Of a stretch of DNA of 21,357 nucleotides, positions 10,340-17,271 are shown in pieces. Positions within the stretch are counted from its first letter, which is position 1; every line of letters begins with the position of its first letter. The DNA lies in contig DDBE01000208.1 in assembly GCA_002332715.1 (NCBI GenBank), forward strand, positions 1,111-22,467, written 5' to 3'. The notes under the pieces are model-generated. The model was given only the letters and a program-made list of their open reading frames with translations, searched no databases and had not been told where the DNA came from. Source of the stretch: Flavobacteriales bacterium UBA2040. Its GTDB lineage: Bacteria; Bacteroidota; Bacteroidia; Flavobacteriales_D; Crocinitomicaceae. Both the position numbers and the translations under genes were made by a program.

Positions 10340-11791
10340 ATGAACTCATCAAATTCACTTCGGGTTTTGGTTTTTACGGCTGGTGTAGCTGCAATATTGG
10401 CTGTGATGTCTTTATTAATGCCCAAAGACGGAGTTTCAATTGGCGATGTAAAATTGAAATTTCTTTCAGCTGAGCAAATTGTATCTGCTAAAAAGCAAGA
10501 AATAAAAGATATTTCGTCAATTGTTTCCAATGTAAACACAAAGGAAACCGAGGAAAAGAGACTTATAAAGCATAAGAACATCACCAATGGAGGTGTTGGT
10601 GCTCCTCAAATAGTGAATTATGAGATGAATAGAGCATCTCAATTTTCACTGTCGTCCACTGGTATGAAGGCCTTGCGAAATTTTTTTAAGAAATTAGAAC
10701 GAGCAGCGGTTGATAAAAACAAAATTCATATTCTTCATTTTGGCGATTCACAAATTGAAGGCGATCGTATGACGAGTTTCATTCGTCAGCGAATGCAGGA
10801 GAAATTTGGTGGCTACGGTCCAGGGTTGATTGCAGCGAATAATATTTACCCCACGCTTTCTTACCGCCAAAGCTATTCGCCTAATTTTGTACGTTACACG
10901 TGTTTCGGAGGTGCTAAACTGAGCAATAAACAATATGGTGTAATGAATTCTGCAGCACGGTTCACTTCTGAGAGTGTGGACTCCAATGCAACCGTTCAAG
11001 ATGCTTGGATAACGATTGGCCCTGATAATCGTGCACATAGTAGGGCGCAAAGCTTCAATAAAGTTAATATGTTTTACAATTCGTGCGAAGTGTCTTGTTT
11101 GCTGCAGGTTGAGAGCAATGGCAAAATAATACATGAAGAATATTTGGTGACCGACGGCAATTCACATGTTGTAAAATTGGTGTTTGGACGAACCCCTGAA
11201 TCATTAAAATTCAATTTTAAAAGTGTGAAAAGTCCAAATATTGTTGGCTTTTCGTGTGAAGGCGATTACGGCGTTCAAGTAGACAACATCGCCATGCGTG
11301 GTTCAAGCGGCACATTTTTTGGTTCAGTCAATAGAAATTCATTTAAAAAGATGTTGAACGAGCTGAATACGGAACTAACAATTTTACAATTTGGCGGTAA
11401 TTCGATGCCTTATTTAAAAGATAGTGCGGCAGTAAGAAAAGAAGCTAGATATTTCAAAAGTCAAATTCAAACTTTAAAAAGTTTGAAATCAGATATGGCG
11501 ATTATCATGATTGGGCCAAGTGATATGTCGAAGCTTAAAAATGGAGTATATGAAACATATCCATTATTGGAATATCATATCTCTCAATTGAAAAAAGCAG
11601 CATTGAGTGCAGGAGCCGGATATTGGAATTTGTTTGATGCCATGGGCGGAAAAAATTCGATGCCAGCTTGGGTTGAAAAAGATTTAGGGCGACCTGACCA
11701 TGTCCATTTTAGTATAAAAGGAGCAACAATTGCGGCTCAATTATTTTATGATGCATTTATGTCTGAATACTTAAAATTTGAAGGAAAATGA
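10340..11791 (+). CDS. SGNH/GDSL hydrolase-like envelope protein, first of a pair
   Basis: Predicted envelope esterase or acetyltransferase of the SGNH fold. At 483 residues it has a hydrophobic N-terminal segment (about 7-28, signal anchor or signal peptide). All four SGNH blocks are recognisable: block I HFGDSQIEGD (Ser137), block III FGGNS (Asn near 354), and block V DHVH (Asp453, His456). About 215 residues separate block I from block III. This insertion is beta-rich, as in SGNH proteins carrying an inserted jelly-roll. The C-terminus GxxIAAQLFYDAF matches the next gene's product. ATG at 10340 is preferred over an in-frame TTG at 10334. The stop overlaps the next start (ATGA). Partnered with the MBOAT protein, it may pass an acyl group to an envelope glycan (inference). 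Confidence 0.85.
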   Translation: MNSSNSLRVLVFTAGVAAILAVMSLLMPKDGVSIGDVKLKFLSAEQIVSAKKQEIKDISSIVSNVNTKETEEKRLIKHKNITNGGVGAPQIVNYEMNRASQFSLSSTGMKALRNFFKKLERAAVDKNKIHILHFGDSQIEGDRMTSFIRQRMQEKFGGYGPGLIAANNIYPTLSYRQSYSPNFVRYTCFGGAKLSNKQYGVMNSAARFTSESVDSNATVQDAWITIGPDNRAHSRAQSFNKVNMFYNSCEVSCLLQVESNGKIIHEEYLVTDGNSHVVKLVFGRTPESLKFNFKSVKSPNIVGFSCEGDYGVQVDNIAMRGSSGTFFGSVNRNSFKKMLNELNTELTILQFGGNSMPYLKDSAAVRKEARYFKSQIQTLKSLKSDMAIIMIGPSDMSKLKNGVYETYPLLEYHISQLKKAALSAGAGYWNLFDAMGGKNSMPAWVEKDLGRPDHVHFSIKGATIAAQLFYDAFMSEYLKFEGK

Positions 11792-13110
11792 TTTGGCGAA
11801 TTAACATATTCTTGGCGTTCATCCTTTCTTCCAGTCAGACTGGGTCATTGGCGCAGATAGCACCGTTTGGCGATTCCTTAGCTGCTTTCCATCCACCTAA
11901 AATTAGTAGTCTGGATAGCTCCTATTTGAAACGATACCCAGTTGTCGATTTCGATTTGAATTATTTTCAATTTTACACGGAAGAAAGTCACAACTGGGAA
12001 ATTTTGTTCGAAAAAATGAGCAAAATGAAAGAAACGAAGCAAGGGAAGTTGAATTTTTATCATGCTGGAGGTTCACATTTGCAAGCAGATATCTACACAC
12101 ACGAAGTAAGAACGAAATTTCAATCACAAAACGAATTACTAGAAGGCGAACGAAATTGGGTTTTCCCGTATGACCTTGCTAAAACGAACAATCCTTGGAA
12201 TTATGAATTTACCTCGCCGAATTTCTGGAAAAGGTACCGAAGTGTGGTGAAAGACCAAGCTAATGAAGCGTATGGCTTGTCAGGGATTAAAATCTCATGT
12301 TCTGATTCTATTTCATCGATGAGTTTTAGTTACGACAAAACCAAAGTGAAACCCGTAATTCAACGGATTCGAATTTTTCACAACAAAGGTGTATTTCCTT
12401 TTCAATTGGATTGGAAGGAGCAAAAAGACAATGTTGAACATATTATCACAGACACAATAATTGGTTTTACAGAAGTCAAGTTTAAAAGACCGTTTATAAC
12501 GTTTGAAGTGGAATTTGAACGAACGATTCCAATTGCGTACGAACTTGAAATCTATGGTCTTCAATTGATGAATTACTTTCCGGGTGTTTCTTATTCGAAT
12601 ATTGGAACAAACGGAGCAGCCTTGTGGAATTATTTGGCTTGTGCTCGTTTAGAGGAAGAGTTGAGAATGACACCACCGGACTTTTTTGCTTTTTCAGTTG
12701 GGACAAATGATGGCAACGTCCCACCAGAATCATTCGATCCAGAGGAGTATAAAAATAATTTAGAACGTTTGATGAAGATTGTTCTTCGCACGAATCCCGA
12801 ATGCGCTCTGTTATTGACTGTGCCCAACGACTCTTATTTTCACCGGAGCCATTTGAATCCAAATATCGCTAGAGAAAGAACGGTTATTCGGGAGCTTGCT
12901 CAAAAATACAATTGTCCAGTATGGGATTTATATGGAATAATGGGTGGTTTAGGTTCATCTAAAACATGGTATATGAACAAATTAATGCAAAAAGATTTGG
13001 TACATTTTACAAAAGCCGGTTATCATTTGAAAGGTGATTTATTTTATGATGCTTTTGAAAAAGGCGAAAGACAATTTGAAACGCGCAAAATCAAAACTGC
13101 AAAAAACTAA
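11788..13110 (+). CDS. SGNH/GDSL hydrolase-like secreted protein, second of a pair
   Basis: A 440-residue protein with a signal peptide (about 1-22, ending SLAQ). Block I reads HAGGSHLQAD, so the usual GDS is GGS, keeping Ser96 but replacing Asp with Gly. Block III is GTND (305-308) and block V is DLVH (Asp403, His406). As in its neighbour, block I and block III are split by about 200 residues, here including IQRIRIFHNKG. Both proteins also share WxLxxxMGG and LFYDAF near the C-terminus. The pair is therefore probably an old tandem duplication. The GDS at residues 28-30 is outside the fold and is not the active site. Translation is coupled to the upstream gene by a 4-base overlap. Export suggests it acts outside the inner membrane. 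Confidence 0.85.
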   Translation: MIWRINIFLAFILSSSQTGSLAQIAPFGDSLAAFHPPKISSLDSSYLKRYPVVDFDLNYFQFYTEESHNWEILFEKMSKMKETKQGKLNFYHAGGSHLQADIYTHEVRTKFQSQNELLEGERNWVFPYDLAKTNNPWNYEFTSPNFWKRYRSVVKDQANEAYGLSGIKISCSDSISSMSFSYDKTKVKPVIQRIRIFHNKGVFPFQLDWKEQKDNVEHIITDTIIGFTEVKFKRPFITFEVEFERTIPIAYELEIYGLQLMNYFPGVSYSNIGTNGAALWNYLACARLEEELRMTPPDFFAFSVGTNDGNVPPESFDPEEYKNNLERLMKIVLRTNPECALLLTVPNDSYFHRSHLNPNIARERTVIRELAQKYNCPVWDLYGIMGGLGSSKTWYMNKLMQKDLVHFTKAGYHLKGDLFYDAFEKGERQFETRKIKTAKN

Positions 13111-13134
13111 AAGGTGGAAAGTTGGTCGCGTTTC

Positions 13135-14970
13135 ATGGATGTTTTTTCTTTAAGTTTCGATGATGCGTCTCCATTAAACTTTGTTCAACTTAATTTCTGG
13201 ATATTTTTTTTGGTGGCGATCAGCGTCTACACCATTCTTGATTTATCCAAGAAAACCAAAACCAATGCCTTTTATATCACAATTGGATTGGCAATTGTTG
13301 GTGTTTTAGGAATAACAATCAGTGCCATTCAAAGCGGTTTTGGAAATTTCGAGTTCAAACTCACAGTACTTGATTGCTGGTTGATGTTTATCGCTGGTGT
13401 ATTTTTCCTATCGCGATTCAAAGAGAAATTTTGGGTAAGGAGCTTCTTCTTGACCGTTATCAGCTTCTTCTTTTATTTCAAATCATCCGGCTTATTCGTT
13501 GTTTTATTGGGCCTTAGTTTAGTGGTGAATTATTTCATAGGCAAGAAAGTATTTGCCTCCGAAAAGGAGGGAACAAGAAAGTGGATTTTAGCTTTGGGAA
13601 TCGTATTTAATGTAGGAATACTCTTGTATTTCAAGTATGCTTATTTCTTTACTGAGGCATTCAACACCACCTTCGCAACAAACTTTGAACCGATAAACCA
13701 TTTTGCACATTGGGCCAATGGATTCTTCGGAGAAGGAACTTTTATTGAACGGATTTTGCTTCCCGTCGGTGTGTCTTTTTTCACTTTTCAGAGTATTTCT
13801 TATAGTGTAGATATATACCGAAAAGAGATTGAACCCGTCAAAAGTTTCTTCGATTATTCATTTTTCGTCACCTTTTTCCCTCAACTCGTTGCAGGACCAA
13901 TCGTTCGGGCAAAAGACTTCATTCCTCAAATTAGAAAGCCGTACGAACTCGACAATACAGATTTCAGTTGGGCGATTGTTCAAATCGTCAAAGGATTAAT
14001 AAAAAAGATTGTTTTAGCAGATTACATCGCCATACATTTCATTGATCACATTGCTGAAGCTCCAGAAATGTTCCCAGGATTTGTGAGCATTTTAGCCATG
14101 TGGGGATATTCCTTACAGATTTACGGCGATTTTTCTGGCTATACCGATATTGCAATTGGGCTTTCCAGATTGATGGGATTCAATATAAAAGAGAATTTCA
14201 ATTCACCTTACAAAGCCTTGAGTGTGGCCGACTTTTGGAGAAGATGGCACATTTCCTTGGGTTCATGGTTGCGTGATTATTTATACATTCCTCTTGGCGG
14301 AAACCGTCGTGGTGGTTTAGGAACTTATGTCGTGTCAACTATCATTTTCATTTTCTTAATTTTTATAACGAAGTGGTATGCTTTGATATTTGTTTATATC
14401 GGCATGCTCATCATTTATACCTACGGTTGGCTTTTTATCAAAGATTTTAATCGTTTGGTGCATAGAGATTTGAATTTATTGATAACTATGGTTATAGGAG
14501 GATTGTGGCATGGTGCAAGCAAGAATTTTGTTATTTGGGGAGCACTAAATGGTATTGCATTGGTGATTTACAAGTATTGGAAGAAGATTAGCCCATATAA
14601 GGAAAACACATCTGGTCTCTCTCGTTTTTGGAAGATTTTTATCACCTTTAATTTCATCACTTTCACGCGAATTTGGTTTCGTTTAGAAGACGACGACCTG
14701 CCACTGCAAATGTTGAATCAAATTGTACATCATTTCGATTTTTCTTGGACAGTATTTCTTGAAGTAATTTCTACCTATTGGAGTGCATTTGCACTTATTG
14801 TAATTGGATTTGTACTTCACTGGTTGCCTGGAGCAATTAAAAAAGGATGGGAACTACGATTTGAAAAAATGACCTTACCCTTAAAAGCACTATCTGTTGC
14901 ACTTATCATCTTTTTAGTCTACCAAACAGCTGTTGATGGAGGTAAACCTTTCGTTTATTTCCAGTTTTAA
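13135..14970 (+). CDS. MBOAT-family membrane O-acyltransferase (AlgI/DltB type)
   Basis: Integral membrane enzyme expected to move acyl groups from a cytoplasmic donor across the inner membrane. The 611-residue protein has about ten or more hydrophobic segments. It shows the AlgI/DltB core: PVGVSFFTFQSISYSVDIYR, FFPQLVAGPIVRA, IYGDFSGYTDIAIG, and ADFWRRWHISLGSWLRDYLYIPLGGNR (given here as consecutive family motifs). The conserved His of WRRWH (372) and the catalytic His of GGLWHGAS (459) are present. About 55 residues with two extra hydrophobic stretches separate GGNRRGG from GGLWHG. A GTG at 13114, four bases after the previous stop, is an alternative start giving 618 residues. It is third in the SGNH-SGNH-MBOAT operon; the acceptor is unknown. 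Confidence 0.9.
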   Translation: MDVFSLSFDDASPLNFVQLNFWIFFLVAISVYTILDLSKKTKTNAFYITIGLAIVGVLGITISAIQSGFGNFEFKLTVLDCWLMFIAGVFFLSRFKEKFWVRSFFLTVISFFFYFKSSGLFVVLLGLSLVVNYFIGKKVFASEKEGTRKWILALGIVFNVGILLYFKYAYFFTEAFNTTFATNFEPINHFAHWANGFFGEGTFIERILLPVGVSFFTFQSISYSVDIYRKEIEPVKSFFDYSFFVTFFPQLVAGPIVRAKDFIPQIRKPYELDNTDFSWAIVQIVKGLIKKIVLADYIAIHFIDHIAEAPEMFPGFVSILAMWGYSLQIYGDFSGYTDIAIGLSRLMGFNIKENFNSPYKALSVADFWRRWHISLGSWLRDYLYIPLGGNRRGGLGTYVVSTIIFIFLIFITKWYALIFVYIGMLIIYTYGWLFIKDFNRLVHRDLNLLITMVIGGLWHGASKNFVIWGALNGIALVIYKYWKKISPYKENTSGLSRFWKIFITFNFITFTRIWFRLEDDDLPLQMLNQIVHHFDFSWTVFLEVISTYWSAFALIVIGFVLHWLPGAIKKGWELRFEKMTLPLKALSVALIIFLVYQTAVDGGKPFVYFQF

Positions 14971-15045: not shown

Positions 15046-17271
15046 ATGACCAATGTTGTAAAAAAGTTTGGGACGACTCCGGTATTTTTAACGGGAATTT
15101 CTACCATTTTAGGAGCAGTAATGTTCTTGCGTTTTGGTTACGCCGTAGGAAATATTGGGTTTTTAGGCACACTAGGAATTATTATTATCGGTCACATGGT
15201 TACCATTCCAACAGCCATGGCCATCGCGGAAATTTCCACCAACCAAAAAGTAGAAGGTGGAGGCGAATACTTTATTATTTCACGATCATTCGGTTTAAAT
15301 ATAGGTTCCGCAATAGGGATTAGTCTCTATTTATCACAAGCCATTTCCGTCGCCTTTTATATTGTGGCCATGGGAGTCGCTTTTGAGCCTTTGATAGAGT
15401 GGGTAGGTCAAACCTATGGCTTTTACATCATGGATATGCGTTTGGTGACTTTACCATGTTTAGGACTTTTAACCTTGTTGATTTTAACAAAAGGTGCCGA
15501 TTTGGGAATGAAGGCACTTTATTTTGTTGTCGCCATTTTATTTGTTTCACTGATCTTCTTTTTTATGGGTTCAGGCACTGGTGAGGCTATTTCATTGACT
15601 TCATTAACCAGCCACATTGAAGATGGAGATTCTTTTTTCATTGTTTTTGCGATTTGTTTCCCGGCCTTTACAGGTATGACAGCCGGTGTAGGATTGTCTG
15701 GTGATTTGAAGGATCCGAGCGAATCTTTGCCGAAAGGAACGATGATGGCAACATTAGTTGGTATGGTTATTTATGTTTTCATTGCTTTAAAACTTGCTAC
15801 CTCGGCGTCTTCTGCTGATTTAGCCTCCGATCAATTAATCATGAGTCAAATTGCCATTTGGGGACCTATTATTCCAATTGGACTAGCAGCAGCGACATTC
15901 TCCAGTGCACTTGGTTCTTTTATAGTGGCTCCTAGAACACTGCAAGCCTTAGGGAAAGACAAAGTTTTCCCGAACAAACAAGTCAATCGCTTTTTTGCAA
16001 AAGGTAAAGGAAAAAACAATGAGCCATTTTCTTCTAGTCTGGTGACGCTTTGTATCGCTACAGTTTTTGTGGCCATTGGCGATGTCAATTTCGTTGCAGA
16101 AATCATTTCCATGTTCTTTATGGTTACTTATGGTGCGCTTTGTTTGATTTCGTTTTTCCAACATTTCTCAGGCGATCCATCGTATCGTCCAACATTTAAG
16201 TCAAAATGGTATATCTCTTTATTCGGTGGAGTGATGTGCGTGTTCATGATGTTTAAAATGAACCCTTTTTATGCTGTATTTGCGATAATTTTAATGTTAT
16301 CCATTTACTATTACATCTCTTCTAAAAATGACAAAAAACAAGGCATTACGGCCATTTTTCAAGGGGTAATTTTCCAATTCAGTAGAACGGTTCAAGTGTT
16401 TTTGCAAAAAGCGGAGAAAGATCAAAAAGATGAAACATGGCGACCTTCGATAGTTGCTTTCTCTAACCAAACATTCGTCCAAAACTCCAATTTCCAGATT
16501 ATGAAATGGATGACGCGGAAACACGGTTTTGGTTCCTACATACACTGGATTAAAGCTGAGTTGAACGAAGATACGGTGTTGGATTCGAAAGAAACTTTAT
16601 CGAGAATGATACGAATTTCAAATATTTCGAAAAGCAATTTCTATCTACAGACTCACGTAGCGCCTTCATATACTGGGGCAATTTCTCAGATGTTGCAATT
16701 ACCAGGTGTTTCAGGTAAGGACAATAATATGATTCTGTTGGATTATGAACGAGGAAAAATGGACCAGCTTAACCAGATCAAGGAGAATTACACTTTGATG
16801 TTCGCTAGTCATTTTGATATCTGTGTTTTATCGACGGGCAGCAAAGGGTTTGGTGTAATGGGCGATATTCATATTTGGGTAGAAGCAAATCAAACGAGTA
16901 ATGCACAATTAATGATTGTTATGGCCTATATCATCCTTGGAAGCCATGATTGGCGAAAAGGGAAAGCGACGCTTCATGTTGCTTTAAATGAGTCTGTTTT
17001 CGAGTCAGAGAAAACCCTGATGCAAGATTTAATTTTCCAAGGAAGTTTACCAATATCTGAAGCAAATGTTCAATTTCACAAGATTCGTGACAATGAAACA
17101 CTGAATGAAAAGATCTGTAAAAACTCGAAAGATGCCGACTTGATAATGATTGGATTTAATCACCATACTCTTGATACTGAGTTTACAGTTCAAGAAAATG
17201 AATTAAAATCATTGTGTAATATTCTTTACATCAATAGTAACACAACGAAGAATTTTGGTATTGAGGAATAG
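15046..17271 (+). CDS. Cation-chloride cotransporter (SLC12 family, APC superfamily)
   Basis: A 741-residue membrane transporter with about 12 helices (residues 10-425) and a soluble C-terminal domain (about 465-741), the layout of SLC12 cotransporters. Family blocks include VEGGGEYFIISRSFG (69-83), CFPAFTGMTAGVGLSGDLKDP (204-224), FSSALGS (285-291), APRTLQALGKDKVFP (295-309) and FAKGKGKNNEP (317-327). Tyr105 in helix 3 fits the K+-coordinating Tyr of NKCC/KCC. Ser286-Ser287 fit the helix 8 Na+-site serines of NKCC/NCC that KCCs lack. Na+-K+-Cl- cotransport is therefore likely, though not proven. It starts 75 bases after the MBOAT gene on the same strand, and no terminator lies between. Amino-acid permease is the broader alternative label. 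Confidence 0.88.
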   Translation: MTNVVKKFGTTPVFLTGISTILGAVMFLRFGYAVGNIGFLGTLGIIIIGHMVTIPTAMAIAEISTNQKVEGGGEYFIISRSFGLNIGSAIGISLYLSQAISVAFYIVAMGVAFEPLIEWVGQTYGFYIMDMRLVTLPCLGLLTLLILTKGADLGMKALYFVVAILFVSLIFFFMGSGTGEAISLTSLTSHIEDGDSFFIVFAICFPAFTGMTAGVGLSGDLKDPSESLPKGTMMATLVGMVIYVFIALKLATSASSADLASDQLIMSQIAIWGPIIPIGLAAATFSSALGSFIVAPRTLQALGKDKVFPNKQVNRFFAKGKGKNNEPFSSSLVTLCIATVFVAIGDVNFVAEIISMFFMVTYGALCLISFFQHFSGDPSYRPTFKSKWYISLFGGVMCVFMMFKMNPFYAVFAIILMLSIYYYISSKNDKKQGITAIFQGVIFQFSRTVQVFLQKAEKDQKDETWRPSIVAFSNQTFVQNSNFQIMKWMTRKHGFGSYIHWIKAELNEDTVLDSKETLSRMIRISNISKSNFYLQTHVAPSYTGAISQMLQLPGVSGKDNNMILLDYERGKMDQLNQIKENYTLMFASHFDICVLSTGSKGFGVMGDIHIWVEANQTSNAQLMIVMAYIILGSHDWRKGKATLHVALNESVFESEKTLMQDLIFQGSLPISEANVQFHKIRDNETLNEKICKNSKDADLIMIGFNHHTLDTEFTVQENELKSLCNILYINSNTTKNFGIEE

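Follow-up and report, generated by a model that had tools for sequence, protein, structure and literature searches.

The window analysed here is a stretch of 21,357 nucleotides on contig DDBE01000208.1 of Flavobacteriales bacterium UBA2040, a metagenome-assembled genome (MAG) of 2.1 Mb and 83% completeness; its named relatives, for instance Fluviicola and Brumimicrobium, belong to the Crocinitomicaceae. It carries, on one strand, a trio of genes for two SGNH proteins, SGNH1 and SGNH2, and an MBOAT acyltransferase. We are highly confident that, whichever SGNH protein does which job, the trio is a Bacteroidota module for the O-acetylation and de-O-acetylation of peptidoglycan, the local form of the 'OAP' cluster described in 2005. 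It is very probably a known kind of cluster, useful and not surprising to find, and the live question is the missing PatB, the protein that accompanies PatA and Ape1 in patA-patB-ape1 clusters. Lysozyme is blocked by peptidoglycan O-acetylation, which also controls turnover of the wall.

All three open reading frames (ORFs) lie where the first-pass annotation, made from the sequence alone, had placed them, in the order SGNH1, SGNH2, MBOAT. Its account of tight linkage, a four-base overlap and then a short gap, was borne out; the gap is three bases, leaving no room for another gene inside the trio. It had also read the products as two exported SGNH-fold proteins and an AlgI/DltB-type MBOAT, and the Pfam matches agree: SGNH2 to Lipase_GDSL_2 (E 1e-12), the MBOAT to PF03062 (E 1e-21) and SGNH1 to Lipase_GDSL (E 6e-5, merely 0.1 bit above the cut-off). 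In the structure models the N-terminal helices look like an anchor in SGNH1 and a signal peptide in SGNH2. This distinction draws on the two models and a few sequences that were read, because a signal-peptide heuristic separated the proteins poorly: a cleavage-like motif was found in 39 of 64 SGNH1 and 54 of 66 SGNH2 sequences, and a hydrophobic N-terminal stretch above threshold in 60 of 64 and 28 of 66.

The two SGNH proteins had been called dissimilar, and this did not hold. They are full-length homologues within one subfamily (profile-profile E 1e-45), and their models align to 4k3u across 344 residues (SGNH1) and 343 residues (SGNH2), with an SGNH fold that is split after block I by a beta-sandwich, as in Ape1. 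Identity to Ape1 is about 20% for each. In the SGNH1 model the anchor helix is followed by a poorly ordered linker (model confidence, pLDDT, <50 at residues 74-85), and the insert, whose borders are approximate, occupies the place of the carbohydrate-binding-module-like domain of Ape1.

The MBOAT matched the DltB structure 6bug (E 3e-17) and scored 152 bits against the NCBIfam DltB family, where the cut-off is 375. Its C-terminal tail ends in an FXYXXF motif. PatA acetylates the tyrosine of such a tail with acetyl-CoA as donor, and PatB accepts the acetylated tail peptide as its own donor (PMC12148441). In a tree, the MBOATs of Bacteroidota trios, those of Bacteroides included, group apart from pseudomonadotal PatA. 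Its deep forks are weak (support 80/65 and 83/75, the joining fork also holding a second MBOAT of the window's genome), and with a midpoint root it gives no demonstration that the trio MBOATs descend from PatA. That second MBOAT, on contig C121 (L064:4398-6970), lies beside an ALGX-domain protein and after a DUF5686 protein; with its ALGX-domain neighbour it makes up a separate, more conventional AlgI/AlgX-like pair. At one locus (L196, genome G090) two tandem MBOAT genes lie 3' of SGNH1, both ending PFIYFQF.

Peptidoglycan is the leading acceptor because of the Ape1-type SGNH pair, the layout of the genes and the wall hydrolase genes beside the cluster in relatives. The first-pass annotation had proposed an envelope O-acylation module with two SGNH partners that could divide the work. 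That part stands, and the partners probably do divide it; its description of the system as under-described, with no lead to an acceptor, is not supported. The genes ape1b, ape1c and pat were reported in 2005 by Weadge et al. (PMC1199599) from B. thetaiotaomicron, B. fragilis and P. gingivalis: ape1b lies 5' of pat, ape1c is sometimes between them, and in Bacteroides a cation-efflux transporter gene lies upstream. Esterase was the name given there to both SGNH proteins. We established equivalence to the trio by sequence in three other gut species, B. finegoldii, P. massiliensis and P. distasonis, taken from a plasmid collection; the organism names given in the 120 rows listed by a deep protein search were all those of unclassified Bacteroidota, Bacteroidetes or Bacteroidia MAGs, and many rows bore no name. 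The SGNH1, SGNH2 and MBOAT profiles match genes 1, 2 and 3 of P. distasonis and P. massiliensis. In B. finegoldii, which has efflux genes upstream of the cluster, the profiles match genes 2 and 3, and gene 1, which the ORF filter of the profile search removed, is matched by BLASTP (E 2e-25).

Linkage of the trio is not due to chance. Eighty named loci were kept from 526 confirmed, and 73 of them carry the trio in the same order on one strand. Five are broken at a contig end (three before SGNH1, two after SGNH2), and two (L138, L145) have no adjacent MBOAT; in their genomes, G033 and G013, it lies 13 kb off and on another contig, respectively. The first 20 wider family loci (L034-L053) comprise 17 full trios, two loci from these same genomes without an adjacent MBOAT (L049 and L050; MBOAT found elsewhere at E 1e-259 and 1e-255) and one with SGNH2 alone (L051). 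Among 15 further loci picked for weaker or odd matches (L054-L068, one being the genome's second MBOAT), seven hold all three genes. SGNH2 was matched in 42 of 60 family genomes and had no match in 18, which limits the conservation of the trio. The flanks vary, with some recurrent genes such as that for a DUF255 protein. One locus with a Crocinitomicaceae-type trio (L108, CP034120.1) is titled Glaciecola amylolytica, and the record may be misnamed.

Profiles built from the family only matched SGNH2 in 35 and SGNH1 in 30 of 148 genomes of the phylum, and a broader SGNH2 profile matched 260 of 396 class genomes at E <= 0.001, some weakly. Layout counts are descriptions and not frequencies, because the loci were chosen for having a match. 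Twenty phylum loci divide into SGNH1-SGNH2-MBOAT (6), SGNH1 about 18 kb from SGNH2-MBOAT (1), SGNH1-MBOAT-SGNH2 (3), SGNH1-MBOAT with a convergent SGNH2 (2), SGNH1-MBOAT without SGNH2 (3), SGNH1-ligase-carrier-MBOAT (3) and SGNH1 without either partner (2). The six genomes with SGNH1 and MBOAT but no SGNH2 in the stretch gave no separate SGNH2 by the family-only profile. Twenty further class loci include 13 ordered trios (in L209 a 216-aa ORF precedes the MBOAT); in L213 an overlapping ORF masked the SGNH genes, and other profile searches place all three side by side. The three parts tend to share a genome even when apart on the chromosome, exceptions being the loci without SGNH2 and genome G041, where SGNH1 is matched weakly at best (E 8e-44). 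The first-pass annotation had asked for such a neighbourhood survey, and the lack of conservation that it named as refuting did not appear in the named family loci or in the phylum and class loci.

A gene lies 5' of SGNH1 on the same strand in 39 fetched loci, and 28 of these genes were scanned against Pfam (all but those of L037, L049, L050, L061, L182, L191, L194, L195, L196, L216 and L221). Twelve, in relatives from several families and counted without a matched random-gene control, encode wall hydrolases or LysM proteins: SLT transglycosylase domains (L202, L204, L208, L209, L220), glucosaminidases (L185, L186, L189, L198, L219) and LysM alone (L056, L183). Within 20 bases of SGNH1 they make up 10 of the 14 scanned, the other four encoding a DUF218 protein (L184) and short GDSL proteins (L190, L192, L197). 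Among the remaining 16 of the 28 are unrelated genes (dehydrogenases, a sulfatase, BatD-like proteins) and others without a family. Because peptidoglycan O-acetylation inhibits lytic transglycosylases (PMC1199599), we take these neighbours as independent support for peptidoglycan as acceptor, and they raised our confidence in the module from fairly good to high. At L202 a penicillin-binding transpeptidase gene lies on the far side of the cluster.

In the proposed mechanism the MBOAT would move acetyl from cytoplasmic acetyl-CoA, the donor we infer from PatA, to Tyr615 of its C-terminal tail via His466. A periplasmic SGNH protein, which we assign as membrane-anchored SGNH1, would take the acetyl group on its catalytic serine and pass it to muramic acid in the wall, and the other, assigned as exported SGNH2, would remove it so that wall-cutting enzymes can act. 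Residues were mapped to gonococcal Ape1 through sequence alignments together with the residue list given in PMC6174289, with an inferred number offset. The loci behind the residue counts were fetched because they matched and were sorted by profiles built partly from the same sequences; the SGNH2 set takes in a few lone or paralogous proteins (e.g. L059, L060, L062, L063, L065), two members of the SGNH1 set (L191, L195) have no MBOAT close by, and paralogous MBOATs, among them the genome's second, are counted in the MBOAT set.

The Ape1 signature is GDSH in block I, Asn-Gly in block II and Thr-Asn in block III. In the window's SGNH2 the block I Asp alone is replaced, by Gly; the Ser and His of block I, both residue pairs and the later Asp and His agree with Ape1, and the block III Thr recurs in 50 of 64 relatives. 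SGNH1 has the triad and oxyanion residues but Arg or Lys at the position of the Ape1 block II Asn (63/63), with Thr rare (2/63); the block I His and block II Asn of the signature are missing from all its relatives and the Thr from 61 of 63. A similar pairing occurs elsewhere. In six pseudomonadotal clusters (N. gonorrhoeae, P. mirabilis, A. junii, C. portucalensis, Sphingomonas and Novosphingobium; two of eight matched records were repeats, of N. gonorrhoeae and P. mirabilis) one SGNH gene has GDSH and the other GDSL, GDSM or GDSF, and to our knowledge the SGNH roles are known by experiment solely for Neisseria among these six. Two of the records, L225 (NZ_CP119142.1, Neisseria gonorrhoeae) and L226 (NZ_OL790811.1, Proteus mirabilis), are 2.2 and 4.1 Mb long and look like chromosomes, although deposited as plasmids. 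Three gut Bacteroidales have GDSF in SGNH1 and GDSH in SGNH2, and in three aligned PatB sequences the block II residue is preceded by Gln or Arg, close to the Arg of SGNH1. Since SGNH2 keeps the Ape1 residues and SGNH1 diverges from them, with GDSH/non-GDSH pairs elsewhere and a PatB-like Arg, we give the transferase role within a peptidoglycan module to SGNH1, an assignment that we rate a little short of an even chance.

Several observations weigh against this assignment, and most of them fit the reverse, in which SGNH2 is the transferase working at the MBOAT and SGNH1 the esterase. SGNH2 adjoins the MBOAT in the window; in family f44 the gene after SGNH1 encodes SGNH2 and MBOAT as one fused protein of 948-970 aa (L202-L204), with open frames of 932-944 aa in four more genomes; and at three class loci of two families (L210, L211, L217) SGNH2 adjoins the MBOAT with SGNH1 not beside them, six genomes of these families having a strong SGNH1 elsewhere (E 1e-112 to 1e-127). 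SGNH2 is also slightly nearer to PatB in a profile comparison (E 7e-7 against 2e-4 for SGNH1), a likeness that in both proteins is weak and of a general SGNH kind. BLASTP to PatB gave no match for SGNH1 and E >1 for SGNH2, and a three-row PatB profile, for which no genome is known to match, found nothing in 60 family genomes. SGNH2 of Bacteroidaceae has lost the insert, and PatB is without one (PMC12148441). Transferase activity has been linked to a block II residue that is Ser or Asn and not Gly (PMC12148441), and both proteins keep the Gly (Gly323 in 61 of 63 SGNH1, Gly276 in 63 of 64 SGNH2); an earlier review gave this Gly as invariant in PatB (PMC6174289), so the criterion has shifted. We nevertheless regard the reversed roles as unlikely: the Ape1 esterase residues are nearly all kept in SGNH2 and not in SGNH1, and among the 20 phylum loci the MBOAT lies between the SGNH genes in three, shares a strand with SGNH1 and not with SGNH2 in two, and accompanies SGNH1 with no SGNH2 in the stretch in six (three with ligase and carrier between).

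Other points bear on the peptidoglycan module as a whole. The gene 5' of SGNH1 in the window is by Pfam a divergent pfkB-type kinase gene and no wall hydrolase; most of the close family likewise lacks a 5' wall hydrolase gene, and a divergent gene often precedes SGNH1 there. The evidence on chemistry comes from relatives, none of it directly from Crocinitomicaceae, and searches of the open-access literature turned up no study that tests the Bacteroidota cluster by genetics or biochemistry. PMC11382707 assigns O-acetylation in some Bacteroidota to OatA/OatB, and AT3-family (PF01757) proteins occur in 21 of 21 family genomes searched, the window's included (19 above cut-off; those listed lie mostly in open frames <500 aa), so a second wall acetylation route may exist by this family match. 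MBOAT/SGNH pairs also modify alginate, cellulose and other glycans (PMC12148441), and Ape1-fold enzymes only about 20% identical to Ape1 could have been re-used on a surface polysaccharide or lipopolysaccharide. Consistent with this, sugar-nucleotide-type genes stand beside the cluster at three loci: at L210 and L211 (family f75) SGNH2-MBOAT has as neighbours a SIS-CBS gene and a nucleotidyltransferase gene whose product carries a ManC-type helix, and L187 has an epimerase-type gene. A sulfatase gene lies beside the cluster at L215. We consider an acceptor other than peptidoglycan very improbable, lowered from rather improbable because of the wall hydrolase neighbours found in 12 of 28 scanned relatives. 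Cluster-bearing Bacteroides species do O-acetylate their peptidoglycan (69.4% in B. fragilis and 27.0% in B. thetaiotaomicron; PMC1199599), and, as the first-pass annotation had said of the surroundings, no polysaccharide-synthesis gene was recognised among 17 window ORFs scanned against Pfam and nine against NCBIfam; three of the 17 had no good family match. That the MBOAT transfers an acyl group other than acetyl, which a carrier protein might supply as in Dlt systems, seems extremely improbable. It would suit three loci of another class (L192, L193, L197), but no AMP-binding ligase was found among the window ORFs scanned or between the trio genes in other layouts, and PatA, with an identical tail motif, uses acetyl-CoA (PMC12148441).

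Those three loci (family f14) have, between SGNH1 and the MBOAT, an AMP-binding ligase gene (572-574 aa) and a small ORF, about 80 aa long, in which the motif PGWDSL looks by eye like that of an acyl carrier (one was scanned and had no Pfam match); a short GDSL protein gene lies 5' of SGNH1. As judged from sequence, a Dlt-like donor arm is joined here to an Ape1-fold SGNH protein and an MBOAT with its own Tyr tail. Features of the trio in the window are collected in Table 1. 3' of the MBOAT lie a cation or amino-acid permease, PaaZ and DusB; the permease (15046-17271) has an amino-acid-permease domain and a sub-threshold match to a K-Cl cotransporter subfamily (296 bits, cut-off 953).

Table 1. 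Coordinates of the trio and its features in the window; counts refer to relatives with letters at the position.
Feature	Positions	Strand	Remarks
SGNH1	10340..11791	+	ATG at 10340, enclosing ORF from TTG 10334, stop 11791; counterpart of 'Ape1b' in Bacteroides, an Ape1-fold SGNH protein with membrane anchor; acetyltransferase role proposed
SGNH1 predicted N-terminal hydrophobic helix, residues 8-28 (numbering from TTG 10334)	10355..10417	+	structure model; probable membrane anchor
SGNH1 block I Asp138, catalytic Ser139, Gln140	10745..10753	+	Ser in 62/62; His after Ser in 0/62
SGNH1 beta-rich insert, residues ~160-310, between blocks I and II	10811..11263	+	model; borders approximate
SGNH1 block II Arg322-Gly323	11297..11302	+	Arg or Lys 63/63, Gly 61/63
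SGNH1 block III Asn356	11399..11401	+	63/63
SGNH1 block V Asp455 to His458	11696..11707	+	both residues 63/63
ATGA overlap, SGNH2 start and SGNH1 stop	11788..11791	+	four bases shared
SGNH2	11788..13110	+	counterpart of 'Ape1c' in Bacteroides, an exported protein with the Ape1 fold; O-acetylesterase role proposed
SGNH2 probable signal peptide, residues 1-22	11788..11853	+	model helix 2-20, pLDDT <50 at 21-27; cleavage site by eye
SGNH2 block I Gly95, catalytic Ser96, His97	12070..12078	+	Ser, His each 64/64; Gly95 is Asp in 25/64
SGNH2 beta-rich insert, residues ~117-262, between blocks I and II	12136..12573	+	model; borders approximate
SGNH2 block II Asn275-Gly276	12610..12615	+	Asn 59/64, Gly 63/64
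SGNH2 block III Asn307	12706..12708	+	64/64
SGNH2 block V Asp403 to His406	12994..13005	+	Asp 63/64, His 64/64
MBOAT acyltransferase, PatA/AlgI type, 618 aa	13114..14970	+	
MBOAT conserved His466	14509..14511	+	67/67
MBOAT C-terminal hexapeptide, FXYXXF acyl-shuttle motif	14950..14967	+	Tyr615 at 14956-14958, Tyr in 67/67

Peptidoglycan O-acetylation is heavy in gut Bacteroides, MurNAc O-acetylation being put at 56-66% in three Bacteroides species (PMC11382707), above the 2005 value for B. thetaiotaomicron. Yet the Pat enzymes listed in the consulted parts of that 2024 gut review are solely from Pseudomonadota and Campylobacterota, and 'bacteroid' occurs nowhere in the text of the recent paper on the PatAB mechanism (PMC12148441). 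A conserved trio without PatB, often behind a wall hydrolase gene, makes the question of which SGNH protein is the transferase directly testable. It is possible, although we lean somewhat against it, that Bacteroidota acetylate their wall without PatB and that a remodelled Ape1-fold protein, SGNH1, with no His after the Ser, an Arg before the block II Gly and an anchor, became the transferase. Writer and eraser would then be paralogues of one esterase family, often encoded directly behind a wall hydrolase on which the mark would act as a restraint. Fusion of the eraser with the acyl pump would have happened in some lineages, and in one class a Dlt-like ligase and carrier would feed the MBOAT-SGNH1 core.

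Among known systems, the AlgI-AlgJ-AlgX-AlgF machinery shares with the trio an MBOAT of that type and two SGNH-type partners (AlgJ and AlgX; PMC4148444); membership in alginate O-acetylation was rejected, as no ALGX domain, alginate gene or polymer-export gene was recognised in the window scans. DltB-DltD likewise has an MBOAT that hands acyl groups to an SGNH protein, but the window MBOAT bears the tail motif itself, whereas Dlt has it on DltX, and Dlt membership was rejected because the scan of 17 window ORFs recognised no DltA-type ligase or AMP-binding domain. Among 166 ORFs of 30-110 aa, a crude motif search for DltC- or DltX-like products gave no FXYXXF ending and a single carrier motif that looks like chance. 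With patA-patB-ape1 of Neisseria, Proteus and Campylobacter the trio has in common an MBOAT with an FXYXXF tail, two SGNH proteins, the Ape1 fold and a small stand-alone cluster; it differs in gene order and in having no sequence relative of PatB. The Ape1c of PMC1199599 is without a segment of about 100 residues after motif I, as are two Bacteroidaceae SGNH2 proteins of 305 and 332 aa that have no insert, whereas the window SGNH2 (440 aa) keeps its beta-rich insert. Like an OAP cluster, the trio is small and links Ape-family SGNH proteins to an MBOAT with a conserved His and an FXYXXF tail, and its three protein types match those of ape1b-ape1c-pat in Bacteroides and Porphyromonas in identical order.

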